DNA of 22,425 nucleotides. Source: Anaerolineae bacterium. GTDB taxonomy: Bacteria; Chloroflexota; Anaerolineae; JAAYZQ01. Positions within the stretch are counted from its first letter, which is position 1. Each line of letters starts with the position of its first letter. The position numbers and the translations under genes were made by a program. The stretch spans positions 1 through 22,425 of the forward strand of contig JAFGOG010000625.1 in assembly GCA_016926595.1 (NCBI GenBank), read 5' to 3'. Positions 359 through 20,031 of the stretch are shown in pieces. Below the pieces are notes generated by a model that saw only the letters and a program-made list of their open reading frames with translations, had not been told where the DNA came from and made no database searches.

Positions 359-562
359 TCAGACCGGATAGCTGAATTGCGCCTCCTCGTTCGCGGGCAG
401 CACGCCCCGGCGCAGCTTGCCCAACTTTTCCAGCAAGCGCAGGACTTGGCCCTCGCCGCCTCCGGCCCGCCGCGCCAACCGTTCGGTCAACTGCCAGCGC
501 CGTTCGCCCCTTTACTCAGCCAGCCAGCCCAGGCGGTCGCGCAGGGCAGGTAGACGCCAGCC
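359..562 (-). pseudogene. Decayed C-terminal coding remnant, unrecognised
   Basis: On the minus strand a protein-like frame reads from about 562 down to a TGA at 361-359. It is rich in Arg, Leu and Glu (for example RLGWLAE, then RRWQLTERLARRAG and QVLRLLEKLGKLRRG) and is broken by a TAA at 514-512. The composition looks like the end of a helical protein. There is no start region, and another in-frame stop lies just upstream at 565-563. I do not recognise the family. It may be chance in GC-rich DNA. Confidence 0.3.
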
Positions 563-642
563 TCACGGCTCCCCTAACTGCACAAGGTCTAGGCCAAATC
601 CGGCCGTCAGTCGACCGTCCGAAATCGGTCAGCGGTTTCCTC

Positions 643-671
643 TTGACCTCCTTGACGTTCCGCCCTATAAT
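643..671 (+). promoter_or_regulatory. Strong sigma-70-type promoter of the zinc-ribbon operon
   Basis: TTGACC at 643-648, a 17-bp spacer and a perfect TATAAT at 666-671 give a near-consensus promoter. A second TTGACG at 652-657 is too close to serve the same -10. Predicted start is near 678, so the transcript has a leader of about 120 nt before gene A, containing the small Cys-rich frame at 704-772. Confidence 0.75.
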
Positions 672-703
672 GTGTATACTTGAAGTGGCGAGGAGGGAGG
701 AGC

Positions 704-772
704 ATGCTCGACCGCTGTTTCTTCTGCCGGTTCTCGCCCTGTTGCTGTTGCTCGGGATACTGTGAACGCTGA
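704..772 (+). CDS. Cys-rich 22-residue leader peptide
   Basis: A short frame starts with ATG at 704, 7 nt after a perfect AGGAGG (691-696), a much better ribosome site than that of gene A downstream. The 22-residue product has seven cysteines (C5, C8, C13 to C16, C20), including four consecutive Cys codons, and stops at TGA 770-772. It lies about 26 nt after the predicted transcription start and 24 nt before gene A, in the same frame. Poly-Cys leader peptides are known to work as cysteine-responsive attenuators in mycobacteria, so a regulatory uORF is one reading. A metal-binding or exported micropeptide is another. It is too short for composition to prove coding. The ribosome site is the main evidence. 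Confidence 0.5.
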   Translation: MLDRCFFCRFSPCCCCSGYCER

Positions 773-796
773 ACTGACAAAACCAGAGTAGTTGTT

Positions 797-1597
797 ATGG
801 AAAGCGAAAACACCCGATTACCGCTCCGTTGCGCCCAGTGCGGCGCCGATCTGAATATTGGCGCTGGCGAGGTCTTTGTGGCCTGTGCTCACTGCACTTC
901 CGCTCTCTACCTCGACCGGAGCGAGGTGGTCTTGCACTACCTGGTGGCCCGAACCCTGGACGCCCAGGCCGCCACAGACACGCTCAAGCGCTGGATGGCG
1001 GGCCCCAGGACAGCCAAAGACCTGGATCGCCTGGCTATGATCGAGCCGCCCCAGCTCCGCTACTTGCCCCTCTGGCGTTTCCGGATCGTTGACGACGGAT
1101 CGTCGACCACGAGCTTGGGGGAGCAGGTCCACGTCGAACCGGCGACAGAGGCCGACCCCTGGCTCCAGGAGTTGACCCTCCCGCCGGGCGAACTACGCTT
1201 TTTCCGCGACCCCAGCCTGGCTCCCCTGCTGCTGCAACCGACGATTTCATACGAAACAGTCGAATCCCCGATCCCCGCATCGCGCGAGGTTGCCCTAGTG
1301 CATGTGCCTCTCTTCTTTTTCCAGTATCGCTTCCACGACGAGACCTATCGCGCGGCTGTGGATGCAGCTTCGGGCCAGGTTCTGGCTGCCGCCTATCCTG
1401 CCCGCCAGGATTTGGCCTACCGCATCCTGGGCTTTGTCACTTGTGCCGCTTTCTTCCTGGCGGCCTTTGGCCTCTACTGGCTGTTGTACGTGACCGGCGA
1501 GAAGCTGGTCCCCGCCCTTGCACTGCGCTGTGGGCTGCAGTTGCTGCTTACCGCGCTGCTGTTTTTTCCGGCGTGGCTGGTCGCCCGCAAGTTCTAG
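797..1597 (+). CDS. Zinc-ribbon membrane protein A (module 1)
   Basis: This 266-residue protein has an N-terminal zinc ribbon with Cys at 12, 15, 30 and 33 (CAQCG and CAHC). A soluble middle region follows with the motifs RYLPLWRF (88-95) and PLFFFQY (171-177), then a VDAASGQV turn. The C-terminus has two predicted membrane helices at about 209-231 and 240-262. The paralogue at 5069-5848 aligns from the first residue, with all four Cys at the same positions, which fixes the start. No clear Shine-Dalgarno precedes this ATG, so translation may depend on the Cys-rich frame upstream. Gene B follows after 15 nt. The function is unknown. The ribbon may bind zinc structurally on the cytoplasmic side of a membrane complex (inference). 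Confidence 0.85.
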   Translation: MESENTRLPLRCAQCGADLNIGAGEVFVACAHCTSALYLDRSEVVLHYLVARTLDAQAATDTLKRWMAGPRTAKDLDRLAMIEPPQLRYLPLWRFRIVDDGSSTTSLGEQVHVEPATEADPWLQELTLPPGELRFFRDPSLAPLLLQPTISYETVESPIPASREVALVHVPLFFFQYRFHDETYRAAVDAASGQVLAAAYPARQDLAYRILGFVTCAAFFLAAFGLYWLLYVTGEKLVPALALRCGLQLLLTALLFFPAWLVARKF

Positions 1598-1612
1598 GAG
1601 GAAGGCCTGGAT

Positions 1613-3427
1613 ATGCGTGCAGAGCAGGTTGTCTACAGCCTCAACTGCCCCCAGTGTGGCAGCGCCCTGGGGGTGGACGAAGGCCGCACGGTCGTAACCT
1701 GTCCTGCCTGCAACACCTCCTGCCGGGTGAGCGGACAGAAAGGTCTGTGGCGTTTCCAAATCCGGCCCGGCGTGAGCCGAGAGCAGGTCTTGGAGGCTGT
1801 GCCGCGCACCCTCTCCCGCCTGGACCTGGCCCCTGGCTTGAAAACCCAGGCGACCGTCCAGGAGTGTTTCCTCGTCTACCTGCCCTACTGGCGGGCCTGG
1901 ATGCGCGCCGCCGCCTGGCTCTTTGGCCGCAAGGCGGTCAAGAACGACACTGTGCCTAAGGAAAAGGTCATCGCCGAGGATTTCACCTGGACCGACGCCG
2001 CCTGCGACGTGGGCGAGTTTGGCTTGCAATCGCTTTTGCCCCACCGAATGGGCCGCCTGGAACCCTTTGACCGGGAGGCGTTGCAGCGCCGCGCCCTGGT
2101 GCTCGAACCGGCCGAGTCGAGCACCGAGGCCCTGGAACAGGCCGAGAACGCTTTCGTGGAAAAAGCCCGCCAAGAGGCGGACCTGAAAGAGATCTTTTTT
2201 GAACGCTTCCAATTCTTGCAGCAAAAGTTGAGCCTGGTCTACTATCCCCTCTGGGTCGTGCGCTATCGCTATCGGGAGCGCGCCTACCACCTGGTTTTCG
2301 ACGGACGCCGGGTTGTCTCGGGGCGAGCGCCGGGCAATCCTCTGTGGCAGGCGGCGGCGCTGGTGGCTGCCCTGCTTGTGGCCGCCACGCTGTCGGTGGA
2401 CCTGATGATGCAGTCGGTTCGCATCTGGACGGACCTGGTCCAAGGGGGCGTCCCCCTCAGCTTTGACCTGATTCTGCTCGCCATCTTTACCGTCATCTTT
2501 TGTCTCGGCGCGTCCTCCCTGGCCACCGCCCTACTCCTGGCTGGCTATTCCTTCTTCCGCCTGGGCGGCGAACGGATGCTGGGCGGCAAGCAACGGTTTT
2601 GGGACCTCGGCCGAGCGTCAGCAGTCGGCTGCCTGTGGGGGACAGGTTGGCTCCTGGTGTTGATTTTGGCCCAGGTCTTCGCCTGGCGACACGAGATCAT
2701 CATCCCCGCCTTTGTCCTGACCACCTTTGCCGCCCTGGGCCTGGGCTGGTGGACGATGGACGTCGAACCGGAGCCTGATCCGCCGCTGGACGCCTGGCTG
2801 CGGCTGGGCCAGGCGCAGCCACAGCCAGAGACCGCCCGGCCCGAGTTGACGCCGCTACAGTGTCTCAACTGCCAGACACCGGTGCGCGCCCGTGAGGGCA
2901 TCGTCGTCTACCGCTGCCAGGGCTGCGGCTGGGGCCTGGAACTGGGGCCGGATGGGCTGCGGCAGATAGACATTGCCTTCGCCGCCCCCCAGCCTGTGCC
3001 TCGCGGCCAACGTCCGGGCAACCTGCCCTTCTGGGTGTTCGATGGTCAAGTCGAAATTCGGCAGCGGAAAGCAGTCAAGACGACCTTTATGGGTTGGGAG
3101 ACGGGGCCCAGCCCCGACCGGGGTCAGATGTGGCAGCAGCCGCGCCGCTTCTACGTGCCAGCTTTTGGAGGGCGATTAGAAGACCTGGAAACCTGGGGCG
3201 TCCACCTGACCCTGACGCAACCCGACCTGACGCCGGGCAAGCCCATCAACGTTCAGGACTGCGTCCGCACCGAGGAGGAAGCCCGCTGCCTGGCTGAATT
3301 CATCTTTCTGCGCATCGAGGCGGACAAACGCGATGTGCTGCAAGACCTGGACTACAGCCTGACGCTGATGGCGTCCCGGCTGGTGGTGATCCCCTTTGTA
3401 GAGAAAGGCCAAGGAGAAGGTCTGTGA
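1613..3427 (+). CDS. Double zinc-ribbon polytopic membrane protein B (module 1)
   Basis: This 604-residue protein has a zinc ribbon at residues 12-33 (Cys 12, 15, 30, 33). Repeated aromatic motifs of a shared fold follow: VYLPYWRAWMRAAAW (89-103) and VYYPLWVVRY (209-218). About four membrane helices span 245-380. A second ribbon (Cys 417, 420, 435, 438; QGCGWGLEL) precedes LPFWVFDG (471-478) and FYVPAF (513-518). The paralogue at 5861-7681 shares this whole layout. The start follows AGGAGGAAGG about 7 nt upstream. The protein ends in a GTGA overlap with gene C. A distant similarity to zinc-ribbon membrane proteins such as Bacillus YdjG, which help dock an SPFH protein, is a guess that needs a profile search. 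Confidence 0.85.
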   Translation: MRAEQVVYSLNCPQCGSALGVDEGRTVVTCPACNTSCRVSGQKGLWRFQIRPGVSREQVLEAVPRTLSRLDLAPGLKTQATVQECFLVYLPYWRAWMRAAAWLFGRKAVKNDTVPKEKVIAEDFTWTDAACDVGEFGLQSLLPHRMGRLEPFDREALQRRALVLEPAESSTEALEQAENAFVEKARQEADLKEIFFERFQFLQQKLSLVYYPLWVVRYRYRERAYHLVFDGRRVVSGRAPGNPLWQAAALVAALLVAATLSVDLMMQSVRIWTDLVQGGVPLSFDLILLAIFTVIFCLGASSLATALLLAGYSFFRLGGERMLGGKQRFWDLGRASAVGCLWGTGWLLVLILAQVFAWRHEIIIPAFVLTTFAALGLGWWTMDVEPEPDPPLDAWLRLGQAQPQPETARPELTPLQCLNCQTPVRAREGIVVYRCQGCGWGLELGPDGLRQIDIAFAAPQPVPRGQRPGNLPFWVFDGQVEIRQRKAVKTTFMGWETGPSPDRGQMWQQPRRFYVPAFGGRLEDLETWGVHLTLTQPDLTPGKPINVQDCVRTEEEARCLAEFIFLRIEADKRDVLQDLDYSLTLMASRLVVIPFVEKGQGEGL

Positions 3428-4386
3428 ACGAATTGACTCTGAAACCGCTCCTGGCCCTGGGGGCCGGGTTGGCCGGTGCAGCCACCGTCGCTGCCTGTGT
3501 CTGTTTCTCAGGCTTCCTGCTGCTCTCTGGCGCTAGCTGGCAGGGAGTGGACCCGGCACTGTTGGACGCATTGGCCCTCCCTGTGCTGGCGGTTGGCCTG
3601 GCCGTGATCGCCTTGGCTTCCGTGGCCAACGGCGTCGCCTGGTCCATCCTGGTTTGGAAGCAAGGAAAGCGCGCCCTGCCCTGGATGCTCCTGTCGCTGT
3701 GTTGCACCCTGGCCGCGCCCTACGTCCTCCCGCTGGCCCTGGTCTTTTTCACTTCCAGCCCCCAAGTGGAGGATGTGCTCTGCCTGTGCGGCGCGCCCGG
3801 CGTGATAGCGGGGCTTTTTGTCCTCGCTTTCTGGTTCTCACTGCCCAGGCGACCGGCGACAGCGCAACAGCAGGAGGAAACAAAACCCCCGGAACCAGAG
3901 TTGCCGGCAATTCGTGAATCAGACCGCAGCGAGTCGATCGGCGCCCCCTTGACTCAAAGGCGACCAACCCCCACTGAGGCGACGTCCCCCACCAGTGGGG
4001 GCTGCCTGGGCGGTTTCGTCACCTTTGGTCTTGGACTGGCCGTGCCGAGCCTGGCGGCAGGCGTGATCCTGTTGCTGTTGCACCTGGTCTCCATCTTGCT
4101 GTTGGACGCCCAGGCCATCGTTCCGGCCCGTGGCAATCCCAGGCATTGGACCGAGGTTTTGGCGACGGCGTATCTGCTGCTTTCGCCGGTTGCGGCGAGT
4201 GTCATGACTCTGGTCGCCTCCCTCGTGTTGCTGGGCGTCGTCGTGGTTCCCCGCATCCCTTCCAGGGCGGGCAAGGTTGTCAACACAATTCTGTTTTCTC
4301 TGCTATCGGCAATCTTGAGCCTTGTGCTTGGCTTTGCGGTAGTGGCCAGGCTGTTCACGCGGTATAACCCGGAGTGGTGGCGATGA
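3424..4386 (+). CDS. Polytopic membrane protein C (module 1)
   Basis: This 320-residue, very hydrophobic protein starts at GTG 3424, overlapping the stop of gene B by 4 nt, with AAGGAG (3411-3416) 7 nt upstream. About four helices lie in residues 9-138. A polar, Pro/Glu/Thr-rich linker covers roughly 140-190, and about three more helices fill 192-310. It has no zinc ribbon and no recognised family. The tight overlap suggests it forms a complex with A and B. The linker DNA contains an 8-bp inverted repeat (CCCCCACT at 3968-3975, AGTGGGGG at 3994-4001). Module 2 has no equivalent: protein H occupies the corresponding place there. Confidence 0.8.
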   Translation: MNELTLKPLLALGAGLAGAATVAACVCFSGFLLLSGASWQGVDPALLDALALPVLAVGLAVIALASVANGVAWSILVWKQGKRALPWMLLSLCCTLAAPYVLPLALVFFTSSPQVEDVLCLCGAPGVIAGLFVLAFWFSLPRRPATAQQQEETKPPEPELPAIRESDRSESIGAPLTQRRPTPTEATSPTSGGCLGGFVTFGLGLAVPSLAAGVILLLLHLVSILLLDAQAIVPARGNPRHWTEVLATAYLLLSPVAASVMTLVASLVLLGVVVVPRIPSRAGKVVNTILFSLLSAILSLVLGFAVVARLFTRYNPEWWR

Positions 4387-4390
4387 TCCA

Positions 4391-4741
4391 ATGTCCCAAG
4401 AGGAGATCAGACACTTCCAGTTGCTGGCCGAGGCGCTGGATTTTGTCGCTGCCTGCCTGGAAAGCGACGCGGTTGCGGGCCTGGCGGAAGAGATAGAGGC
4501 TACGGAGCACCTTTTGGCGATGGACCCGGGTTGGCCCAGTACGTTTCAGCAGTACTTTTCAGCCCTCAAGGACATCCACTTGGAAAAGGGTTTGCGCCGG
4601 CTGTACGCGGACAGGAGCTTTCCCGACGATGCCGAATTCTTTGAGCTGGGCGGTCCATTAACCGACCTGGAACACAAGGCCATCCAATTCGTCAAGAGAG
4701 ACGAGGGCTGGGTACTGGCCAGCGTCGTGATGTATCGCTGA
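4391..4741 (+). CDS. Small acidic protein D, unknown
   Basis: This 116-residue soluble protein begins 4 nt after gene C. It is acidic and probably alpha/beta, with an Ala/Glu-rich N-terminal helical half and a C-terminal half ending in EGWVLASVVMYR. No signal peptide, membrane helix or Cys motif is visible, and I do not recognise the family. Its ribosome site is weak, so it may be translated by coupling to gene C. Its place at the end of module 1 suggests an accessory or regulatory subunit (inference). Confidence 0.65.
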   Translation: MSQEEIRHFQLLAEALDFVAACLESDAVAGLAEEIEATEHLLAMDPGWPSTFQQYFSALKDIHLEKGLRRLYADRSFPDDAEFFELGGPLTDLEHKAIQFVKRDEGWVLASVVMYR

Positions 4742-4799
4742 GTGCTCCGAAATCGCCTGTTTGCCCAGGACGACCATTGCACTGAGTGTGGGAGGAAAG

Positions 4800-5069
4800 A
4801 TGGACCAGCAATCAATCCCTGAGCGTCTGCGAGATCACCTGGAGCCCGGCGAGCGGCTGCTGTGGCTCGGCTCTCCCGATGCAAAGTGGTTCTCGTGGCG
4901 CGCTGTGGCGGAGCTTGTAGGCCCCGTGTGGGTGGAACTTGACGTAGACGAGCGCGTGAACCTTTCCTTTGTCCGCATCCCAGACGTGGATCTGGCCCTG
5001 GCCATGGCCTACGCTGCCGCGGAGGAGGCCGGGATTCCCCCACCAGAGCGGCCGAGGGGGACAGCCTGA
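4800..5069 (+). CDS. Small protein E, unknown (start of module 2)
   Basis: This is an 89-residue protein. The ATG at 4800 is chosen because GGGAGGAAAG (4790-4799) lies directly upstream. An upstream alternative at 4761 would add 13 residues without a ribosome site. Its stop overlaps the ATG of gene F (TGATG at 5067-5071), so F is likely translationally coupled to it. The N-terminus (EPGERLLWLGSPD) resembles the opening strand of bacterial PH-like domains, but the protein is too short for a complete domain, so it may be a truncated relative. The C-terminal part is Ala/Glu-rich and helical. Confidence 0.6.
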   Translation: MDQQSIPERLRDHLEPGERLLWLGSPDAKWFSWRAVAELVGPVWVELDVDERVNLSFVRIPDVDLALAMAYAAAEEAGIPPPERPRGTA

Positions 5070-5848
5070 TGAACAGAACCAAGACGCAACCGATTTTCCA
5101 GTGCACCCAATGCGGCGCCGACCTGGACATCCCCGCCGGCGCGGTCTTTGTCACGTGTTCCCACTGCGCCTCTACCCTCTACCTCGACCGGAGCCAGGTC
5201 GTCTTTCACTACACCGTCGCCCGCACGCTGGACGCCGAGGCCGCCGGGCGCACCCTGCGCCGCTGGCTGGCCGGCGGCGAGAAGGCCAAAGACCTGGACC
5301 GCGAGGCCGAGATAGAGACTCCGGTTCTGCGCTACTTTCCTTTGTGGCGCTTCAAGGTCCGGGAGGGCGAGGACGAGCGCTTCCACGTCGAGCCAGCGGC
5401 GGTGACGACCCTGGGCCTGCTCGACGGGCTACCCATCCCGCCAGGCGAGTTGCGCTGCTACGACCCCCGGCTGGCGCCCTACCTGGTGCGCCCCACCGTG
5501 CCCCACGAAGCAGTGTCCAGGTGGCAAAATGTGCGGGAAACGGCCCTCGTCCACGTGCCTCTCTTCTTTTTCCAGTACCGCTACCGGGGGCAGACTTACC
5601 CCGTCGCCGTGGACGGTTCCAGCGGTCAAGTGTTTGCCGAGACCTATCCCCGCCGCTGGGACCTGCCCTACCGGGGCGTCGCCGTGTTTGCCTTCGCGCT
5701 CCTGACCCTGGTAGCCCTGGCCGCCTATCTGCTCGTCTCGCCGGGCAGCGAGGACCTGGGCCTGGTCTACGCGCTGCGCTGTGGGGTCCAATTGCTGGCC
5801 GCCGGACTGCTCTTTTTCCTGGCCCGGCAGGTCGCACGAAAGATGTAG
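5069..5848 (+). CDS. Zinc-ribbon membrane protein F (module 2, paralogue of A)
   Basis: This 259-residue protein aligns along its whole length with gene A. It has the same zinc-ribbon Cys positions (12, 15, 30, 33), the same LYLDRS, VARTLDA and KDLDR segments, RYFPLWRF, the identical PLFFFQY, and two C-terminal helices. Identity by eye is somewhat over half. It overlaps gene E by 1 nt and is followed 12 nt later by gene G. The central linker before the HVEPA motif is shorter than in A. The function is unknown. The conserved pairing of an A-type and a B-type protein in both modules implies that they act together. Confidence 0.85.
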   Translation: MNRTKTQPIFQCTQCGADLDIPAGAVFVTCSHCASTLYLDRSQVVFHYTVARTLDAEAAGRTLRRWLAGGEKAKDLDREAEIETPVLRYFPLWRFKVREGEDERFHVEPAAVTTLGLLDGLPIPPGELRCYDPRLAPYLVRPTVPHEAVSRWQNVRETALVHVPLFFFQYRYRGQTYPVAVDGSSGQVFAETYPRRWDLPYRGVAVFAFALLTLVALAAYLLVSPGSEDLGLVYALRCGVQLLAAGLLFFLARQVARKM

Positions 5849-5860
5849 GAGTTGGCTGCT

Positions 5861-7681
5861 ATGCCTGAGAAGCCGATCATCCGAGGTTTGAACTGCCCCC
5901 AGTGCGCCGGCGCTCTCGAAATCGAGGCGGGTCGGGCGGTGGTGAACTGCCCCTTCTGCGGCGTCTCCTCGCTGCTGGACGGCGAGAAGGGGGTGTTGCG
6001 CTTGCAGGTCAGGCCTACCGTGGGGCAGGAGCAGGTCGAGGCAATGGTTCGGCGCTTTTTTCTCCGCTGGGACCGCGACCCCGACCTGGAGCGGGAGGCA
6101 GCCATCCGGGAGTGTTTCGTCGTCTATGTGCCCTATTGGCGGGTCTCGATGCGGGCCGCGGCTTGGCTCGCCGGGCGGAACGTCGGCGAGGATAGCGACG
6201 ACCCGGCCGAGAAAACCATCGTCGAGGATTCTGTCTGGACCGTGGCCGCCTACAACGCCAGCCAGTTTGGCCTGCAGGAGTTGAAGGGGCTCCAGGGCAG
6301 AGAGCTTGAGCCTTTCGACCGCGAGGCGCTGCGACAGCACGCCCTGGTCTTTGAGCCGGAAACATCCGGCGCCAGAGCGAGCGAGCAGGCCGAGTTGGCC
6401 TTCCGGCAGGCAGCCCACCGCCAGTCCGGCGTGACCAGCACCCTGTTCCAGCGTTTCTTGTTCTTTGGCAAGCGCCTGAGCCTGGTGTACTATCCCCTGT
6501 GGGTGGCGCGCTATACGTTCCGGGGACGCTCCTACCAGGTGGTGGTGGACGATCATCGGGTCGTCTACGGGCAGGCGCCGGGGAATCCGACCTGGCGGGC
6601 AGCCATCCTGGTGCTGGCCGTCTTGGTGGGCGCCACCCTGCCCCTGGATTTTCTGATGGGGTGGTCGTGGATGGTCGCCAACGAGCCGTTGTCGTTGGGT
6701 TTTGACCTGCGCCTGGTCGAAAGCGGTCTGGCTTGTGGGGTCTATTACGCGACCACCTGGGCCGTGGCCTGGTTGTCGGTGTCCATCCTGTTGGCCGGCT
6801 ACCGCTTTTTCCGTTTCGGCGGCGAGCGGATCCTTGGCGCCCGGCGCAAGCTCCCTCTGCAGGCCTTGTGGCCCACGTTGGCCTGGGGGCTGGGGCTGGT
6901 CCCGTGTATGATCCTGGCCCTCGCCTTTCCCTGGCGGCTCGAAATCCTCCTGCCCACCTATGCCCTCGTTAGCGCCGCCAGCCTGGGACTGGGGTTGCTG
7001 GTCAGGCGTCGGTCTCGCGCCAACGGGGCGCGACCGGAGGTTGACTGGTTCCAGCAACCTGACTGGCTGTGGAAAGCCCAGCCCGCCGATTCCGCGCCAG
7101 ATGACCAGCCCACGCTCAAGCCCCTCCACTGTCCCAACTGCCAGACGCCGCTGTCAGCCAGGGAGGGCGAGGCGGCCTACCTGTGCCAGGGTTGCGGCTG
7201 GGGTCTGGAGTTAGTGGAGGAAGGGCTGCGCCGGATCGAGGTCGCCTTTACCGAGTCGTTGCTTCACCCCAGGGTTGAGGTTGCCCAGCATCTGCCCTTC
7301 TGGGTTTTTGAGGCGACGGTGCAGGTGGAAAAGCGGAAGGCGGTCGAGAAGCATCTGCTCGGCAAAGAAAAAGCCAGCACGGACCACGGCCAATTCTGGC
7401 AGGCGCCTCGACAGATCTACGTGCCCGCTTTCGACGCGCCGATAGAGGACTTGAAAGCCTGGGGCATGGACCTGACCCGTATGCAACTCGATTTGTCGCC
7501 GGGAGATAGCGAGCGGCTCGAAGGTTGCGTCTACACCGAAGCAGAGGCCCGCGAACTGGCCGAACTGATTTTCCTGGCAATCGAGTTCGACAAACCCGAC
7601 GTCATGCAAGAGATCGACTACACCCTGACGCTGACGTCACCCCGGCTGGTGGTCATCCCCTTTGTGGGAGTGTCAAAGTGA
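5861..7681 (+). CDS. Double zinc-ribbon polytopic membrane protein G (module 2, paralogue of B)
   Basis: This 606-residue protein repeats the layout of gene B: N-terminal ribbon (Cys 12, 15, 30, 33), VYVPYWRVSMRAAAW, VYYPLWVARY, about four membrane helices, a second ribbon (CPNC and CQGCGWGLEL), LPFWVFEA, YVPAFD and a C-terminal LVVIPFVG. The ATG at 5861 is preferred over a TTG at 5852: AGGAG sits 9 nt before it, and the first Cys then falls at residue 12 as in A, B and F. The stop overlaps the GTG of gene H by 4 nt, as B does with C. No enzyme motif is visible, so a structural or docking membrane role is inferred. Confidence 0.85.
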   Translation: MPEKPIIRGLNCPQCAGALEIEAGRAVVNCPFCGVSSLLDGEKGVLRLQVRPTVGQEQVEAMVRRFFLRWDRDPDLEREAAIRECFVVYVPYWRVSMRAAAWLAGRNVGEDSDDPAEKTIVEDSVWTVAAYNASQFGLQELKGLQGRELEPFDREALRQHALVFEPETSGARASEQAELAFRQAAHRQSGVTSTLFQRFLFFGKRLSLVYYPLWVARYTFRGRSYQVVVDDHRVVYGQAPGNPTWRAAILVLAVLVGATLPLDFLMGWSWMVANEPLSLGFDLRLVESGLACGVYYATTWAVAWLSVSILLAGYRFFRFGGERILGARRKLPLQALWPTLAWGLGLVPCMILALAFPWRLEILLPTYALVSAASLGLGLLVRRRSRANGARPEVDWFQQPDWLWKAQPADSAPDDQPTLKPLHCPNCQTPLSAREGEAAYLCQGCGWGLELVEEGLRRIEVAFTESLLHPRVEVAQHLPFWVFEATVQVEKRKAVEKHLLGKEKASTDHGQFWQAPRQIYVPAFDAPIEDLKAWGMDLTRMQLDLSPGDSERLEGCVYTEAEARELAELIFLAIEFDKPDVMQEIDYTLTLTSPRLVVIPFVGVSK

Positions 7682-8847
7682 AGCAGCCCTTTGTCTGTCC
7701 TCAGTGCGGACACGAGAGCGACTTTGATCCGTGGGTCGCGGCGGCGCGCTGCCCCCGCTGTGGCTACAGCCCCTCGCCGCCCCCATCCGGGACCGACGCC
7801 CGCTTCTTTGGAGAATCGGATCGACGTCTGAGCTGGGTCGACGCGGAAGCAACGACCGCAGAGGAGGGCGACTTGGATACGGGCGCCACGGCAGGCGACC
7901 GAGAGCCGCCCGCCGCCCGCCTTCTGCACTGCCCTCGCTGCGGGCACAAGAGCCTCATCCTGGCCGGCGAACCCCTCCGCTGCTCGGATTGCAGGCACCG
8001 ACCCCGGCCTGGCGAAGGCCAGGTCCTGGACCTCACGCTTGCGGACCTGCAAGAACTGCTGGGCTCGGCCGAGGAACCAGGCCGGGGGCCTGAACTCCAC
8101 CTCAAGGTGGGAGAAAGCGACCAAACCTACCATCGTTTGCGTCAGCAGTTTCGTGAGAAGGCGCCGCTGCGCGTATTCGAGTGCCCCTCGTGCGGCCGGC
8201 AGAGCGTGTTTCGGACCGATGAACTGCCCTACTGTGCCTGGTGTGGGCACGCAGCGGGCAGCCGAACTCGATCCAGGATTCGTCAGCCAGCCATCGAGGA
8301 GGGGAAGCAGGTATCAAGCCCCGGTTGGACGGACGTGCTCAGCGTCCTCGCTCCTTCGAACCTGGGGCGTCTTTTCGGGGGCCTCATGCATCTAGCGCGA
8401 AGTGACGTCCGCCTGACGCTTGGGGTTTTGTTCCTGACCGTTTGGGGGCTGCTGTTGCTATTTGCCTTCAGCCGCGATTTGCGCGAATCGGTGGGCCACA
8501 AGCTGCAACTCATGTTCTCAGCCACGAGTACGACCGAGGGACGAGTGGTAGAGCGGTTTGAACAGCGCGCCCAAAAGGGACCTTCCAACTACTACGTCAC
8601 CTATCGCTACTCGGTTCCGGGTGCCGATGGTCAGGTACAGGAATTCACGAACCGGGAACGGGTCAAATGGAGCCTGTACGACAGGCTCGAATCCGGCGCG
8701 ACCGTCACAATCCGCTATGCCGACCGCGATCCCAGCATCGCCAGCATCAGCGGCAACGAGGGCCTGTGCTTCGGAACAACTTGCCTGACGCTGCTCGTGC
8801 TGCTTGTGGTCGTGTTCACGTTATATGCTTGGGCTTCCAAGCCTTGA
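7678..8847 (+). CDS. Triple zinc-ribbon protein H with DUF3592-like domain
   Basis: This 389-residue protein starts at GTG 7678, inside the stop of gene G, with GGGAG 7 nt upstream. It has three zinc ribbons: Cys 7/10/25/28, 85/88/102/105 and 169/172/186/189. They are separated by charged linkers. A membrane helix (about 246-264) follows, then a beta-rich domain (about 283-357) with the DUF3592 pattern (TEGRVVERF, YYVTYRYSV, GATVTIRYADRDP), then a last helix (366-385). In DUF3592 proteins this domain lies between two helices, as here. The likely topology is ribbons in the cytoplasm and the DUF3592 region outside (inference). It ends the second module. Confidence 0.85.
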   Translation: MKQPFVCPQCGHESDFDPWVAAARCPRCGYSPSPPPSGTDARFFGESDRRLSWVDAEATTAEEGDLDTGATAGDREPPAARLLHCPRCGHKSLILAGEPLRCSDCRHRPRPGEGQVLDLTLADLQELLGSAEEPGRGPELHLKVGESDQTYHRLRQQFREKAPLRVFECPSCGRQSVFRTDELPYCAWCGHAAGSRTRSRIRQPAIEEGKQVSSPGWTDVLSVLAPSNLGRLFGGLMHLARSDVRLTLGVLFLTVWGLLLLFAFSRDLRESVGHKLQLMFSATSTTEGRVVERFEQRAQKGPSNYYVTYRYSVPGADGQVQEFTNRERVKWSLYDRLESGATVTIRYADRDPSIASISGNEGLCFGTTCLTLLVLLVVVFTLYAWASKP

Positions 8848-8899
8848 GAGGAGCAGTTGCGCTGGCTTGCATGGGGAGAGCGCATTCCCGCAGACGTGT

Positions 8900-8928
8900 T
8901 TGCACATACTGCGAATCTGTGTTATACT
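8900..8928 (+). promoter_or_regulatory. Promoter of intergenic element, copy 2
   Basis: TTGCAC at 8900-8905, a 17-bp spacer and TATACT at 8923-8928 preceded by TGT form an extended -10 promoter. Copy 3 at 16504-16532 has the same spacing and flanking bases. Predicted start is near 8935. Confidence 0.6.
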
Positions 8929-8934
8929 GTGGCC

Positions 8935-9070
8935 GATGTCAAGTGTTGCGCCTCCAAGAGAGGGTTCCGTGACAGGTTTTTGGTAAGTGACCCCTTGGGG
9001 GCACTCGAGTTATCGATAAATCGATTTCTCCAGCAAAGGACCGACCTCATAGGCCGGCCCTTCTCTTCCC
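8935..9070 (+). ncRNA. Candidate small RNA, copy 2 of a three-copy element
   Basis: The first 75 nt match copy 3 almost base for base. They include a CCTC/GAGG hairpin (8951-8963) and a GTGACCC/GGGGCAC hairpin around CCCCTTGGGG (8988-9004). The next 25 nt, with ATCGATAAATCGAT, match copy 1. The segment ends in a hairpin with arms GGACCGACC and GGCCGGCCC around a TCATA loop (about 9038-9060), followed by TTCTCTT. Promoter, structured core and end hairpin give a unit of about 135 nt. A 112-residue open frame (8857-9195) overlaps it, but it starts upstream of the promoter and its sequence is not protein-like. The rest of the gap to 9272 shows only a second hairpin. Confidence 0.45.
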
Positions 9071-9217
9071 ATCAGATTGCACAACGAATTGGCTATCTGC
9101 CCAAGGATGCTCCTCGCGAGACTGACAGCTACCTGGCAAGGCTCCACAAAGCAGAAGGTAGGAAACGAATCGAGGACCAGATTGTTCCCTTGTGAGAACC
9201 TGACGGATAGTGAAACT

Positions 9218-9236
9218 CCCCGGCCACAGGTCGGGG
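9218..9236 (+). terminator. Hairpin, possible plus-strand terminator
   Basis: CCCCGGCC (9218-9225) pairs with GGTCGGGG (9229-9236). In plus-strand RNA the only imperfection is a G-U wobble, while the minus-strand copy has an A-C mismatch. So it favours plus-strand transcripts over the convergent otsB operon. The T-run is poor (CCTTTTC about 11 nt later). Confidence 0.35.
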
Positions 9237-9272
9237 CATCCTGTGCCTTTTCGTGAAAGGAACCACGTCCTC

Positions 9273-10067
9273 TCACCTGGGAACGTCGAGCAGCACCTCC
9301 AGCCACCGACGGGCGGCTTGCGGCGATTCCAGGCGCAGGTCGGCCTCGGTGTCCCGGGGCCCTGCCGCCACCACCACAGCAATGCCCCCGCGCGCTTTGA
9401 TGACGCCAAATGCCTCTTCGTCCTTGTCGTCGTCGCCCAGGTAGAGGGGCAGTGCCCCGGGCCAGGGATAGTGGTCCAGCAGGTGGGCGACCGTCAAGCC
9501 CTTGTGCGCCAGCCGGGGGCCAATCTCCAGGAACTTGTGCCCACCCAACAGGCGGAACAACCCCGGGGCGGCTTGCGCTAGAGCCGCATCAGCTAGGTGA
9601 CTGGCGTCGGTCAGCACCCGTTCGGCTTCACCCTCGTCGGCAAAACGCGCATGGAGGGCCAGTGCCCAGCCCTTGTCCTCCAGGAAAAAGCCCTGCCGCC
9701 CGGCGACCAGATCTGCCCAGCGGGGCTTGAGGGCATCCAACGTGGGGCGCAGGCGGTCATACTCGATCCGATCGATGCGCACGCCTTCTGGCGTCTGCAG
9801 CTCGATGCCGTAGGTGCCGGCCAGCAGAACCCCAGGTACGGGGACCAGCTTTTGCACGTGACTCAACCGCCGGCCGCTGACCATGGCCACACGCAATCGA
9901 GGGCGCCGCGCCAGCCGCTCGATCAGGTCTACCAGGTCCGGATCCGGGTTGACGTGCTCCGGTGTGGGGGAAAAGTCAGCCAGGGTGCCATCATAGTCCA
10001 GGAACAGCCACAAGCGCTCTGCCTGGGCCAGCCGCTCTTGCAGCCGGCCATGAGTTTCCGCCTTCAC
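9273..10067 (-). CDS. otsB: Trehalose-6-phosphate phosphatase
   Basis: This 264-residue HAD-superfamily phosphatase would remove phosphate from trehalose 6-phosphate in the cytoplasm, giving free trehalose. Motif I is DYDGT (residues 24-28, nucleophile D24), motif II is MVSGRR, the motif III region is GHKFLEIGP followed by HKG, and motif IV is LGDDDKDEEAF. Length and order fit OtsB. It starts at GTG 10067, overlapping the stop of the glycosyltransferase gene by 4 nt, with GGGAGG just upstream, and it ends the four-gene operon. Because an OtsA-type synthase is in the same operon, trehalose 6-phosphate is the most likely substrate, but a related sugar phosphate cannot be excluded. Confidence 0.9.
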   Translation of the reverse strand: MKAETHGRLQERLAQAERLWLFLDYDGTLADFSPTPEHVNPDPDLVDLIERLARRPRLRVAMVSGRRLSHVQKLVPVPGVLLAGTYGIELQTPEGVRIDRIEYDRLRPTLDALKPRWADLVAGRQGFFLEDKGWALALHARFADEGEAERVLTDASHLADAALAQAAPGLFRLLGGHKFLEIGPRLAHKGLTVAHLLDHYPWPGALPLYLGDDDKDEEAFGVIKARGGIAVVVAAGPRDTEADLRLESPQAARRWLEVLLDVPR

Positions 10068-15375: not shown

Positions 15376-15680
15376 TTTGTCAAGTTTCGTAGTCTCTGGG
15401 AGCGTCACTGTTCTTTGGCTACCAACTGACCGACATGGGAAGCGACCAGCAGGCTTTTGTGGCAACACCAGAAAAGGCGCTGCTGGATCTGGTGCACCTG
15501 CAACCTCGGGGCGATGCACCAGAATACCTCCGGCAATTGCGTCTGCAGAATCTGGAACGGCTGGACCTGGGCCAGTTGCAGCGTCAAGCTGCGCGAGCTA
15601 AAAGTCCAAAGCTGCGCCGAGCGGCAAGTCACATCACCAAGCTAGCCGAAGCTGAAGCACAGGAGTACGAAATCCTATGA
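15376..15680 (+). pseudogene. AbiEi antitoxin, C-terminal fragment beside AbiEii
   Basis: An 81-codon frame from ATG 15435 carries the AbiEi C-terminal signature: ATPEKALLDLVHL, then PEYLRQLRLQNLERLDL and SPKLRRAA. The same frame extends upstream to 15393 and encodes LFFGYQ, a family motif. Just before it, FVKFRSL is readable one frame off (15376-15396), and a TAG at 15390-15392 closes the main frame. The N-terminal winged-helix half is therefore missing. Its stop overlaps the toxin ATG (ATGA at 15677-15680), the usual bicistronic arrangement. In AbiEi the C-terminal domain gives the antitoxin activity, so a shortened product might still act, but the ATG at 15435 has no ribosome site. Confidence 0.7.
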
Positions 15681-16480
15681 AAGACTACCTGGCCCAAATC
15701 GTCTGTGCAGCTACCACCCCCGTACAGGGACGCAATGTGGCCCGCGAATATTTGCAGGCTCGAATCCTGGGCGCGCTTCAGCGGGCAGGGGCGATGATCC
15801 CCCTGGCCTTCCACGGAGGCACCGCCCTTCGTTTCCTCTTTGCCAGCGCCCGCTATTCCGAAGATCTGGACTTTGCCCTGGAGCAGGCCCCAGCAGAGTA
15901 CGACTTCCGCGCCTACCTCCAAGCTATTCGCTCCACCTTCACCGCCGAGGGTTACCAGGTGGAGCTGAAGGTGAGCGATCAGAAAACAGTTCACAGTGCC
16001 TTTGTCCGATTTCGTGGCCTGCTCTACGAACTGGATCTCTCGCCTCATAGGGACGAGGTGTTGGCAGTTAAGATCGAAGTAGATTCCAATCCTCCAACCG
16101 GTGCGGGATTGAAAACCAGCATTATCCGCCGCCATGTGATCCTCCAGCTTCAGCATCACGATCGGGCCTCGCTCCTGGCAGGCAAGCTACATGCCCTTCT
16201 CCAGCGACCGTACACCAAAGGCCGCGACGTCTATGACCTGTTGTGGTACCTCAGCGATCCAGAGTGGCCGGCACCGAACCTGACTCTGCTCAACAATACG
16301 CTGCAACAGACAGGTTGGGAGGCAGAACCGTTGACCGAGGACAATTGGCGAAGGATTGTACGAGACCGACTCCAAGCAGTCGACTGGGAGCAGGTCGTTG
16401 CCGACGTGCGTCCTTTCCTCGAGCCGGCCGCCGATCCGGGTATTCTGAAGTTGGAAAACCTGATGCGAGTCCTTGAATAG
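15677..16480 (+). CDS. abiEii: AbiEii nucleotidyltransferase toxin
   Basis: This 267-residue protein belongs to the AbiEii/MenT-type nucleotidyltransferases, toxins of type IV toxin-antitoxin and abortive-infection systems. The motifs are complete: HGGTALRFLF (46-55), the metal-binding SEDLDF (D63 and D65), VKIEVDSNPP (131-140), and LAGKLHALLQRPYTKGRDVYDLLWYL (167-192 region, K170 and D184). The length is normal and there are no internal stops. AGGAG lies 11 nt upstream. It follows a truncated antitoxin frame with a 4-nt overlap. An intact toxin beside a broken antitoxin suggests reduced expression or activity, or neutralisation in trans. A candidate small RNA with its own promoter begins 24 nt after the stop. 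Confidence 0.85.
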   Translation: MKDYLAQIVCAATTPVQGRNVAREYLQARILGALQRAGAMIPLAFHGGTALRFLFASARYSEDLDFALEQAPAEYDFRAYLQAIRSTFTAEGYQVELKVSDQKTVHSAFVRFRGLLYELDLSPHRDEVLAVKIEVDSNPPTGAGLKTSIIRRHVILQLQHHDRASLLAGKLHALLQRPYTKGRDVYDLLWYLSDPEWPAPNLTLLNNTLQQTGWEAEPLTEDNWRRIVRDRLQAVDWEQVVADVRPFLEPAADPGILKLENLMRVLE

Positions 16481-16503
16481 CGTGCAGAAGCCAGGGCGTA
16501 CGT

Positions 16504-16532
16504 TTGCCCCTACCGAGAATCTGTGCTATACT
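16504..16532 (+). promoter_or_regulatory. Promoter of intergenic element, copy 3
   Basis: TTGCCC at 16504-16509, a 17-bp spacer and TATACT at 16527-16532 preceded by TGC form an extended -10 promoter, matching copy 2 in spacing and in the bases around the -10. Start is predicted near 16539. Confidence 0.6.
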
Positions 16533-16538
16533 GTAGTC

Positions 16539-16675
16539 GATGTCAAGTGTTGCGCCTCCAAGAGAGGGTGCCGTGACAGGTTTTTAGTACGAGACCCCTT
16601 GGGGGCACACAGCTCATCCCCGCCGAAAACGGTGGCGTTCAGGTGGTAGACCCGGCTTCGTGCCGGGTCTTTCAT
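16539..16675 (+). ncRNA. Candidate small RNA, copy 3 of a three-copy element
   Basis: From the start to CCCCTTGGGGGCAC (16595-16608) the sequence is nearly identical to copy 2, with the same 69-nt distance between the -10 and the CCCTTGGGGG block. The ATCGATAAATCGAT part present in copies 1 and 2 is replaced by unrelated sequence. The unit ends in a strong terminator at 16648-16672, giving a predicted RNA of about 137 nt. No open frame is shared with the other copies. Confidence 0.5.
16648..16672 (+). terminator. Rho-independent terminator
   Basis: AGACCCGGC (16648-16656) pairs perfectly with GCCGGGTCT (16662-16670) around a TTCGT loop, followed by TT and then CATT. It would end the copy 3 RNA and insulate the RHS fragment downstream. 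The T-run is short. Confidence 0.65.
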
Positions 16676-16700: not shown

Positions 16701-18242
16701 GTGGACACCCCCTTCCCGGATCAGGTCGCGACGGTGCGGGTGCGCGGGCGCGACCAGGAAGGGTGCATTACACATTGGTCGGACCCGATCGAAGTGAGCT
16801 GGGAGGTGTGCTACCCCGGCGCGCCGGCCGTGACGGGGGTGACACCGGCCACCGGCTCCGATAGCGTCACCATCCGGCCCAGCCTGGTCGTGACCTACAA
16901 CGAGGCAATCTACATCGGCTCGCCGGCGAACGGGCTGCAAGCGCCGCAGGCGTCATTGTCGCTGCCGCCGTCGGTTGGCGACCTGAGCTTTCGTGCCGAG
17001 GCGGTCGTACCCGTGACCGACGTGTGGGCGCTGGCGGTGCGCTACGTGCCGCTGTGGAACCAGTCGATCCCCTCGCTCGAGGAGTGGACGGCGTACACGG
17101 CGACGGTAGCGGGAGCGATGGATGCCATGGCGCAAGCCGTCACCGCCACCTGGACCTTCACCACCGGCGACTTTACCCAGCCGGAAGTAGTGGGCACGGT
17201 CCCGGAGAAGGGGAGCCAGGAGGGCGCGCCGCAAGAGGTGATCGCCTACTTTGGCGAGGACGTGTCGACGGCGGAGGCGTGGTTCATACTGGTCGGCCCG
17301 AAGGGCGAGCTAGAGGGCGAGCTGACCTACTACAACGATGCTTCCGGCGAGCCCGAGGGGCCATCGTGCTACCATTGGCACTTTACCCCCTACGACCCAC
17401 TGACCGCCGGCCAGTACACGGCCGAAGTATTCGGCGTGACCGACCGGGCCGGCCTGGAGATGGAAGCCCCATACGAGTGGTCGTTCGAAGTGACGGAAGA
17501 GATCGGGGGCGAGCTGCTGGCGCCGCCGGCAAAGGCACCGCGCGCGGCAGAGCCGGTTGAGCGCGAGCCGGAAGAGGATCTGCCGGCAGCCGGCGCAAGG
17601 GAGGCAAAGGCGGCAGTGTTGGAAGAGCCGCTGGAAACGCCGGCCGGCGACGGCGGCGAGATCGAGAGTGGGATGGCGGGCGTGCTGTACGTGCGGAGCA
17701 CGTCCTACTACTACTTTGGCGGACAGCGTGTGGCAATGCGGCAGACTAGCTCGTGGGGGGAGAATGTAGTATACTACCTCGTGACCGACCACCTGGGCAC
17801 GACGAGCCTGGTGCTCGATGCTGCCGGCGGCAGGGTGGCGGAGAGCCGGCATTATCCGTACGGCGCCGAGCGGTGGATATGGACGGCGGATGGGAGTGGG
17901 ACGTTACCAACGGATTACCGATTCACAGTCTACGATGCCATTTCGGCTGGAAAGGCGGAGAACGCGATATTCACATCGGCCCCCAAGATTTCGGAGGGTG
18001 CACAAGGGCAGTTTGAGGGGGCCTATCGTGTAGCCCAAAATGGAAAGGTAATTGCCGACAAAGCCCTCGAAGAAGTCAGGCGACCAAGCTTCTGGACAAA
18101 GTTTGGCGCGGCTGCGTCTTCAGCTTGGCAGGGCCTGAAGGCTTGGGGGACACAGCTCACAACGAACTTGGCGAGCACTGAGGTCGTTCTTCCCTTTTTC
18201 TATCTCCCCTACGGTGCGGTTGAGCAGATGTTGCAGCCTTGA
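16701..18242 (+). CDS. RHS/Ig-like cell-surface protein, 5'-truncated and with an altered tail
   Basis: The 513-residue frame begins at GTG 16701 within what looks like the end of a fibronectin-like domain (TVRVRGRDQEG, then SDPIEV) and has no signal peptide, so the true 5' end is missing. Big_5-like beta domains follow (VTGVTPATGSDSV; ATWTFTTGDFTQP; YEWSFEVTEE). A Glu/Ala/Pro-rich linker comes next, then the start of an RHS core (YYYFGGQRVAMRQ, YYLVTDHLGTTSLVLD, ESRHYPYGAERW, TDYRFT). RHS proteins normally continue with GQR and a YNARYYDP-type segment. Here the sequence changes at 17932 to an unrelated tail of about 100 residues with lower GC. AAGGA (16685-16689) might serve as a ribosome site. 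It is probably a non-functional recombined fragment. Confidence 0.6.
   Translation: MDTPFPDQVATVRVRGRDQEGCITHWSDPIEVSWEVCYPGAPAVTGVTPATGSDSVTIRPSLVVTYNEAIYIGSPANGLQAPQASLSLPPSVGDLSFRAEAVVPVTDVWALAVRYVPLWNQSIPSLEEWTAYTATVAGAMDAMAQAVTATWTFTTGDFTQPEVVGTVPEKGSQEGAPQEVIAYFGEDVSTAEAWFILVGPKGELEGELTYYNDASGEPEGPSCYHWHFTPYDPLTAGQYTAEVFGVTDRAGLEMEAPYEWSFEVTEEIGGELLAPPAKAPRAAEPVEREPEEDLPAAGAREAKAAVLEEPLETPAGDGGEIESGMAGVLYVRSTSYYYFGGQRVAMRQTSSWGENVVYYLVTDHLGTTSLVLDAAGGRVAESRHYPYGAERWIWTADGSGTLPTDYRFTVYDAISAGKAENAIFTSAPKISEGAQGQFEGAYRVAQNGKVIADKALEEVRRPSFWTKFGAAASSAWQGLKAWGTQLTTNLASTEVVLPFFYLPYGAVEQMLQP
17237..17668 (+). repeat. Segment duplicated at 19580-20008
   Basis: This stretch of the RHS/Ig-like gene, from about GTGATCGCCTAC to GAGATCGA, recurs downstream in direct orientation. 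By eye, the 3' half is almost identical over about 250 bp, and the 5' part has more substitutions. It covers one beta domain and the Glu/Ala linker. Direct copies about 2.3 kb apart could recombine and remove the DNA between them. Confidence 0.85.
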
Positions 18243-18355: not shown

Positions 18356-18900
18356 TCAAACGACCCGCGCCTTGGATCCGTTGTCGTTTTCGGCCAAGCC
18401 TGCACTGAGCGAAGCGAATGTGGCCAAGATCCCGGTGCGCAAAGCCTGGACGGTCTCCCGTTGCGCGTCGTTGAGGGTACCGGCGTGAAGCGCATCGACC
18501 AGGGCCAGCAGCTGAGCGCTGTCCGGCGGTGTGCTTTGGTGCTATTCGCCGTCAAAGTGGTTTTCAATCTCGGCCATCGCGCGGTAGTAGTCGGCGTCCA
18601 CCGTGCCGTCATACAGCCGCGCGTAGCCCAGCGTGGTGTCGATGAACTTGTGACCGAGAATGCTCTGCACCGTGAGTACCGGCGCGCCGGCGTTGAGCAG
18701 CAGCGTGGCGCAGCTAAACCGGAGCTGATGCGGCGTGATGCGCACACCGCAGCGTTTGGCGTAGGTTCGCAGCCGGCAGGCGCAGTAGCTGACGGTCAAC
18801 GGCTCGTTGCGGTAGAGCAAGAGATGATCGTCGACAGCCGGGCCGTGCACGCCGAGGTACGCCTCGATGGCCGCCATCGTCACGTTGGGTAGACGATGTG
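18356..18900 (-). pseudogene. Tyrosine recombinase, truncated and interrupted
   Basis: The minus-strand frame carries the C-terminal catalytic half of a phage-type integrase: MAAIEAYL, then TPHQLRFSCATLLLNAGA (the H-x-x-R box), VQSILGHKFIDTTLGYARLYDG (His box and the likely nucleophile Tyr). The first catalytic Arg and the whole DNA-binding N-terminus are missing; homology fades at about 18900. A TAG at 18544-18542 interrupts the frame, after which it continues for 61 sense codons (LLALVDALHAGTLN, RETVQALRTGILA) to a TGA at 18358-18356. The tail is protein-like, so the TAG is probably a nonsense mutation. With both lesions it should be inactive. Confidence 0.75.
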
Positions 18901-18951
18901 GTAGCAAACCCGTCCTGCTGAGGCCCGCACGACTACCAGCCCGCGGGGTAC

Positions 18952-19040: not shown

Positions 19041-19262
19041 ATGACCGCGCTAGAAGCGCTCGAATCTGTTCAATATGTGACCGTAAAGGGGAAACGATGG
19101 GCAGTGGTCGGTGCTGATGAATGGGAGGCCATGATCGAATGGCTCGAGACCCTGGAAGACATGGATCTGGCAGACGAGGCGTTTGCTCAGCTAGAAACTG
19201 CAGGTGGAGACCGCGAGCGAGCAGGCTGGCTCAAGTGGGATGAAGCAAAAGGGGATCTGTAG
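19041..19262 (+). CDS. Antitoxin of a RelE/ParE-type pair
   Basis: This 73-residue acidic protein starts at ATG 19041, right after AGGAGG (19031-19036). A longer reading from 19005 lacks a ribosome site. The N-terminal half has a short beta/helix pattern (VQYVTVKGKRWAVVGADEWEAMIEWLE) like Phd/YefM-type antitoxins. The acidic C-terminal half would wrap the toxin. It is followed after 1 nt by the toxin gene, and both share the promoter at 18952-18980. Autoregulation by the complex is usual in such pairs, although no clear operator is visible here. Confidence 0.75.
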   Translation: MTALEALESVQYVTVKGKRWAVVGADEWEAMIEWLETLEDMDLADEAFAQLETAGGDRERAGWLKWDEAKGDL

Positions 19263-19263
19263 G

Positions 19264-19563
19264 GTGAGCCGGTACACGGTCTATGTTACCCCTCCAGCTT
19301 GGAAAGAGATCAAAACCCTGCCCGGCCATATGCGCCAGCGGGTGAAGCAGGTCATCGACAGGCTGGTCGACGATCCTCGTCCTCACAACAGCGTGGTGCT
19401 CCGCGCCCCTGAAGACGAACGTGAACTGTGGAGGCTGCGCCTGGACAGATGGCGGATCGTGTATGCAGTGACCGAGGCGGAAAAGATGGTAGACATTCTG
19501 GCAGTCCGGAAAAGACCGCCATATGATTATGGAGACCTCGAGGAGCTGCTAGGGGTACTGTAG
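19264..19563 (+). CDS. RelE/ParE-family toxin
   Basis: This 99-residue protein has the compact RelE fold pattern: YTVYVTPPAWKEIKTLP, helix RQRVKQVIDRLVDDP, then LWRLRLDRWRIVYAV and VDILAVRKRPP. RelE toxins cleave mRNA on the ribosome and ParE toxins inhibit gyrase; the sequence alone does not decide between them. The GTG at 19264 lies 1 nt after the antitoxin stop. The gene is intact and the pair looks functional, in contrast to the broken genes on both sides. An RHS fragment begins right after the stop codon, so the right end of the inserted DNA lies at about 19565. Confidence 0.8.
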   Translation: MSRYTVYVTPPAWKEIKTLPGHMRQRVKQVIDRLVDDPRPHNSVVLRAPEDERELWRLRLDRWRIVYAVTEAEKMVDILAVRKRPPYDYGDLEELLGVL

Positions 19564-19564
19564 T

Positions 19565-20031
19565 GCAACCAGTCCACCTTTGTGGTGGCCTACTTCAGCG
19601 AAGACGTGTCGACGACCTTCGCCTGGTTCACGCTTGTCGGCCCGAAGGGCGAGCTAGAGGGCGAGCTGGTCTACTACGACGAATCCCCCTGCGAGCCCGA
19701 GGGGCCGTCGTGTTTCCACTGGCACTTCACCCCTTCTGATCCACTGACCTCTGGCGAATACACGGCCGAAGTATTCGGCGTCACCGACCGCGCCGGCCTG
19801 GAGATGGAAGCCCCATACGAGTGGTCGTTCGAAGTGACGGAAGAGATCGGGGGCGAGCTGCTGGCGCCGCCGGCAGGTGCGCCGCGCGCGGCAGAGCCGG
19901 TTGAGCGCGAGCCGAAAGAGGAGCTGCCGGCAGCCGGCGCAGGGGAGGCAAAGGCGGCAGTGTTGGAAGAGCCGCTGGAAGCGCCGGCCGGCGACGGCGG
20001 CGAGATCGATGGCAGGACCAGTTGGCCTTGA
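19565..20031 (+). pseudogene. RHS/Ig-like gene fragment (second copy)
   Basis: The frame begins within a beta domain (VVAYFSEDVS) and carries the same LVGPKGELEGEL, HWHFTP, YTAEVFGVTDRAGLEMEAPYEW and Glu/Ala linker as 17237-17668. It leaves the homology at about 20008 and stops at 20029-20031. There is no start signal, signal peptide or RHS core. It is a remnant of a relative of the gene at 16701-18242. The 5' half is more diverged than the 3' half, which suggests recent gene conversion or patchwork recombination. Confidence 0.8.

Follow-up and report, generated by a model that had tools for sequence, protein, structure and literature searches.

A duplicated operon of YdjG-like zinc-ribbon membrane proteins in an Anaerolineae bacterium

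The operon

The window analysed here is a stretch of 22,425 nucleotides from an Anaerolineae bacterium (contig JAFGOG010000625.1), and the operon in question occupies positions 797-8847 with eight open reading frames (ORFs), A to H, all on the plus strand. It carries a membrane module of zinc-ribbon proteins twice, and we read it, with moderate confidence, as encoding two diverged copies of a YdjG-like membrane receptor or anchor for an SPFH scaffold. Upstream of A, at 643-671, there is a sigma-70-like promoter match (TTGACC-17-TATAAT, 11/12, plus strand; a match to the consensus only), and 5 promoter-like sites were found in 500-9300 compared with 0.8 expected in shuffles.

The first copy starts with A (797-1597, 266 aa), which has a four-Cys ribbon (C12, C15, C30, C33), a putative PepSY/YpeB-like domain predicted to be cytoplasmic and a C-terminal hairpin of two transmembrane (TM) segments, a YdjG-like arrangement. 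B (1613-3427, 604 aa) follows; judged by sequence its N-terminal half is a paralogue of A, with ribbon and domain, and behind it come four predicted TM helices and a C-terminal domain with a second ribbon, here named T (2840-3427, delimited with a 48-row alignment), which is a separate gene in other genomes. C (3424-4386, GTG start), the accessory gene of this copy, encodes a polytopic membrane protein of no recognised family. Between the two copies there are also the small genes D (4391-4741, 116 aa, no TM-like segment) and E (4800-5069, 89 aa), neither with a family; from the look of its sequence, E may be the remnant of a longer gene. The second copy consists of the A-type protein F (5069-5848, 259 aa), the B-T fusion G (5861-7681, 606 aa, T domain at 7109-7681) and the accessory gene H (7678-8847, GTG start), whose product has three zinc ribbons, two TM-like segments and a DUF3592 domain.

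The sequence-only reading had described much of this correctly. A, B, F and G share CxxC pairs at 12/30 and thus Cys 12, 15, 30 and 33, and with further pairs in B (417/435), G (424/442) and H (7/25, 85/102 and 169/186) the operon encodes nine ribbons (one each in A and F, two each in B and G, three in H). The GTGA overlaps at B/C and G/H are present, as are the aromatic motifs: PLW91 in A and F, PYW91, PLW212, PLW243 and PFW472 in B, and PYW91, PLW212 and PFW479 in G. A and F are identical at 145 of 258 positions (56%), 35 standard deviations above 50 shuffles, and B and G at 287 of 582 (49%), 61 standard deviations above. The DUF3592 likeness of the triple-ribbon protein H also held, at 28.0 bits to PF12158 (cut-off 25.3); this was the only Pfam match above curated cut-off among A to H, for which NCBIfam gave nothing above cut-off, and Rfam gave no match.

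The conserved trio A-B-T

Relatives were collected by scanning a genome collection with an alignment of B; a contig scan with the B sequence alone gave no match. The best 80 of 120 confirmed relatives were compared, with flanks of at most 10 kb per side and many shorter, and gene presence and order were scored with one profile per gene (A, B, T, SPFH and the helical gene C4 described below). The 80 loci include 49 from Chloroflexota (among them L042, Promineifilum, which we take to belong there), 20 from Ignavibacteria/Bacteroidota and 7 from archaea, the last under titles of Methanoperedens and of other euryarchaeal or unnamed archaea; A-B-T spans several bacterial phyla as well as archaea.

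The pairing of A with B is a stable feature: 78 of 80 loci have A upstream of B, and at the remaining two (L033, L041) the contig start truncates the locus. In 72 of these 78 the gap between the two genes is no more than 200 nt, and it never exceeds 1084 nt. A separate gene for T, mostly of 180-215 aa, lies 3' of B in 77 of 80 loci; it is missing at L050, and the contigs of L072 and L079 stop just behind or inside B. The complete trio is found in 75 of 80, and conservation covers the entire length of the proteins, not the ribbon alone.

In the window, T corresponds by alignment to the last third of B and of G, and all four Cys are present in each of the 48 alignment rows (B and G included), which means that B and T are fused here. 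By hydropathy, two TM-like segments occur in 44 of 57 unfused B rows, three or four in seven fused B proteins and none in T (48 rows); the structural model of B has four long helices (243-277, 284-316, 332-355 and 360-382). None of 65 B rows and 1 of 77 A rows start with a TM-like segment. Provided that the N-terminus faces inwards, T would be held in the cytoplasm by the pair of additional helices that precede it. The natural B-T fusion predicts one direct contact and points to a cytoplasmic T. CdvB2 and other helix bundles came up as structural matches of B with middling Z scores; these matches fell on the TM helices and were set aside.

The earlier proposal that the copies had specialised by swapping their third subunit does not stand, as the conserved third subunit is T, already fused into both B and G. 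C and H are mutually dissimilar (z 0.0) and have no counterparts in the 80 loci; against the ORFs of loci L001-L134, C had no match and H only matches of at most 19.5 bits. On these comparisons C and H are extra genes, not alternative third subunits.

In the B tree, B and G lie on separate supported branches, each with other proteins (P0002, P0003 and P0008 with B; P0005 and P0007 with G), and the fused protein P0004 lies outside both, from which it follows that the B-T fusion preceded the duplication. Nine rows form one clade with support 100/100, made up of the fused proteins, the partial P0008 and P0009 (366 aa, no T part). The A/F split in the A tree mirrors the B/G split. The trees thus place fusion first and duplication of the module later, and their branching dates the duplication to before the separation from several relatives.

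The trio is sporadic. In the class of G003, one of three A-B-T Chloroflexota genomes inspected (with G004 and G005), strong B matches occur in 16 of 298 genomes; among 301 genomes of its phylum, three gave a strong match and a fourth a weak one, and B was fused in none. G017 was the only member of its order and class to be searched; it has a weak B match, and at E 1e-8 it lacks an A-type gene.

YdjG-like proteins and SPFH neighbours

YdjG belongs to the pspA-ydjGHI operon of Bacillus subtilis and, in the portions of the papers available, is described as having two zinc ribbons, a YpeB-related domain and TM segments (PMC11237479, PMC8581546). When YdjG or YdjH is lost, YdjI (an SPFH protein) and PspA are no longer recruited to the membrane and cells show shape defects under alkali stress, and the mode of stress perception is stated to be unclear (both in the available text of PMC8581546). 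The link to YdjG, offered earlier as a guess, is now backed by profile comparisons and by SPFH genes beside relatives of A. With hhalign, an SPFH-linked Vibrio protein aligned to the B profile over 247 columns (E 1.3e-20), most of the N-terminal half of B. A protein from an Enterococcus SPFH/TPM gene cluster, used as a stand-in for B. subtilis YdjG, aligned over 97 columns to B (E 8.5e-14) and 94 columns to A (E 1.5e-8). By sequence, A and B have a zinc ribbon followed by a YdjG-type domain. The YdjH half of the parallel fared worse: A to H have no Pfam match to TPM (YdjH), and a TPM/YdjH-like role for C or H was rejected.

Of 22 plasmid records matched in a search for SPFH regions, 4 were examined; a B-like neighbour was present in Enterococcus and Vibrio, and the profiles found none in the Butyrivibrio and Bacteroides regions. 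At E 1.5e-7, the Bacteroides zinc-ribbon gene matched the T profile, a hit best put down to the ribbon; the gene next to it did not match B. A plasmid search with B from L054 returned one record, from Enterococcus. On the Vibrio coralliilyticus plasmid (L102, 4971-7124), SPFH and the YdjG-like gene form a two-gene unit near a TIR-domain gene. Genomes of G003's class often encode longer proteins (388-492 aa at the 14 loci L121-L134) whose matches to the B or A profile are weak, and four of them (L121, L122, L123, L129) have two ribbons each, like YdjG.

A nearby SPFH or PspA-like gene had been suggested as something to look for. The former was found upstream of A in 26 of 80 loci, but no SPFH was found among the window's ORFs, and A to H matched no PspA family in Pfam (no systematic search for TPM or PspA was made across the genes around the 80 loci). 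The linked SPFH gene is of the YdjI family and lies at a median of 56 nt from A (range -63 to 650); the one representative scanned matched PF13421 (Band_7_1) and SHOCT, both above cut-off. The linked loci comprise all 7 archaeal and 19 of the 20 Ignavibacteria/Bacteroidota loci, the twentieth being cut by the contig start. In 21 of 26 a helical gene, C4, precedes SPFH, giving the order C4-SPFH-A-B-T. C4 matched NF047596 (LIMLP_15305 family) in 21 of 21 rows (31.7 bits in the row shown, cut-off 210); its representative had no Pfam match at E 0.1 and no convincing solved relative.

Neither the SPFH nor the C4 profile matched a window ORF, and no SPFH lies beside the 49 Chloroflexota loci in the flanks covered. 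The SPFH profile finds Chloroflexota SPFH proteins elsewhere at 104-321 bits, so this absence is not profile blindness. An unlinked C4-SPFH pair is present elsewhere in G003, G004 and G005, and also in G017, where a small ORF just upstream of the pair (L157, 280-798) matches the B profile weakly (12 bits). Across G003's class, C4 occurs in 236 and SPFH in 244 of 298 genomes. At the limits used, each is found in 15 of the 16 A-B-T genomes (C4 not in G560, SPFH not in G399), and among the other 282 genomes C4 is found in 221 and SPFH in 229. Phyletic co-occurrence was rejected as evidence for a partnership, both genes being common without A-B-T as well; since the pairs are common across the class, co-occurrence in Chloroflexota is uninformative.

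Surroundings

Repeat copies flank the operon on both sides (160-256 and 8898-9066) and recur at 16502-16608; a 24-base core is identical at 197-220 and 9007-9030. Genes for an AbiEii nucleotidyltransferase and a ParE-type toxin lie at 15677-16480 and 19204-19563. A bacterial Ig-like (Big_5) gene occupies 16701-18242, and a 300-base stretch of it is repeated at 86% identity 2.3 kb downstream (19582-19881), with an integrase-like ORF (18542-18907, minus strand) in between. An OtsA-like protein of the window, named from its sequence, is 74% identical to a G017 protein, the next best being 54% (251 genomes of the phylum of G003, the genome with Chloroflexota locus L004). The window probably stems from a Chloroflexota lineage for which few genomes are available.

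Interpretation

By analogy with B. subtilis, the most likely role of A-B-T is to anchor an SPFH scaffold at the membrane or to act as its receptor there, which would make the trio a YdjG-type variant. A and B would each supply a zinc ribbon, a PepSY/YpeB-like domain and membrane helices, and T would be their soluble zinc-ribbon partner. Placed in the inner membrane, the trio would use its cytoplasmic domains to bind and position the YdjI-type SPFH scaffold and the helical partner C4, and the assembly may sense or stabilise disturbed membrane, as YdjG and YdjH do for YdjI and PspA. The two copies probably drive different outputs through C and H.

The trio may instead be a self-contained machine of the membrane, for instance one for the assembly or quality control of membrane proteins, with the SPFH linkage specific to Ignavibacteria/Bacteroidota and archaea and no physical partnership in Chloroflexota. 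We consider this unlikely but deserving of weight, given that 54 of 80 loci, including the 49 from Chloroflexota, are without SPFH in the flanks covered, that linkage within the trio (75/80) is tighter than the tie to SPFH (26/80), and that the genes around the Chloroflexota loci are variable (RidA-like, two-component, PLD-like and ATPase-like genes, as read from sequence). It does not account well for the recurrence of SPFH next to a YdjG-like gene in Vibrio and on the Enterococcus plasmid, nor for the unlinked C4-SPFH pair in the three A-B-T Chloroflexota genomes inspected, though such pairs are common in the class anyway.

A defence or conflict module, in which a membrane sensor would act with C and H as accessory effectors, is improbable. 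Its sporadic distribution (strong B matches in 16 of 298 genomes of one class), the AbiEii and ParE genes further along the contig and the TIR gene near the Vibrio pair would suit it, but PADLOC (E 0.01), run on nine proteins (A to E, H, one SPFH, one C4 and one T; F and G were not scanned), gave one 16-bit match, on H, and A to H have no effector domain above cut-off. That the ribbons bind nucleic acid, making the proteins membrane-tethered regulators, is more doubtful still: the source names RPC12/RpoP, L37AE and RNA-binding Zn-ribbon, weak matches between these ribbons and those of RNA polymerase and the ribosome and a Pfam zinc ribbon noted in YdjG and called DNA-binding (in the available part of PMC9239133) point that way, but the listed Pfam ribbon matches of A, B, F and G are all under cut-off, and conservation runs beyond the ribbon.

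The reading as an SPFH anchor can be extended, tentatively, to the proposal that C4-SPFH and A-B-T form a distinct membrane-surveillance complex of Bacteria and methanotrophic archaea, built on paralogous zinc-ribbon/PepSY-like receptors instead of YdjH/PspA; the window could then represent a stage reached after fusion of B with T and duplication of the entire receptor, with C as the membrane output of one copy and H as that of the other. The trio was not found described in the available portions of literature on YdjG, SPFH and zinc ribbons (including PMC8581546, PMC11237479, PMC9239133, PMC3581485, PMC7159879 and PMC12419801). A conserved trio standing beside SPFH and a helical partner in two groups gives defined components that can be tested.

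Comparison with known systems

The SPFH (PF13421, Band_7_1) and C4 (NF047596-like) pair stands upstream of A-B-T in Ignavibacteria/Bacteroidota and archaea, whereas it is unlinked in the Chloroflexota loci and was not found in the window. The DUF3592 family (PF12158) matches the C-terminal domain of H, which adds three N-terminal zinc ribbons. The C-terminal domain of YpeB (PDB 5boi) is counted among the closest known systems. The likeness to B. subtilis YdjG lies in the same order of zinc ribbon, domain with P-aromatic-W motifs and TM segments, and relatives of A and B likewise adjoin a YdjI-type SPFH gene. Unlike pspA-ydjGHI, the linked loci have C4 upstream of SPFH; A, B, F and G have one N-terminal ribbon whereas YdjG has two, and where B. 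subtilis has a single protein there is here a paralogue pair together with T.
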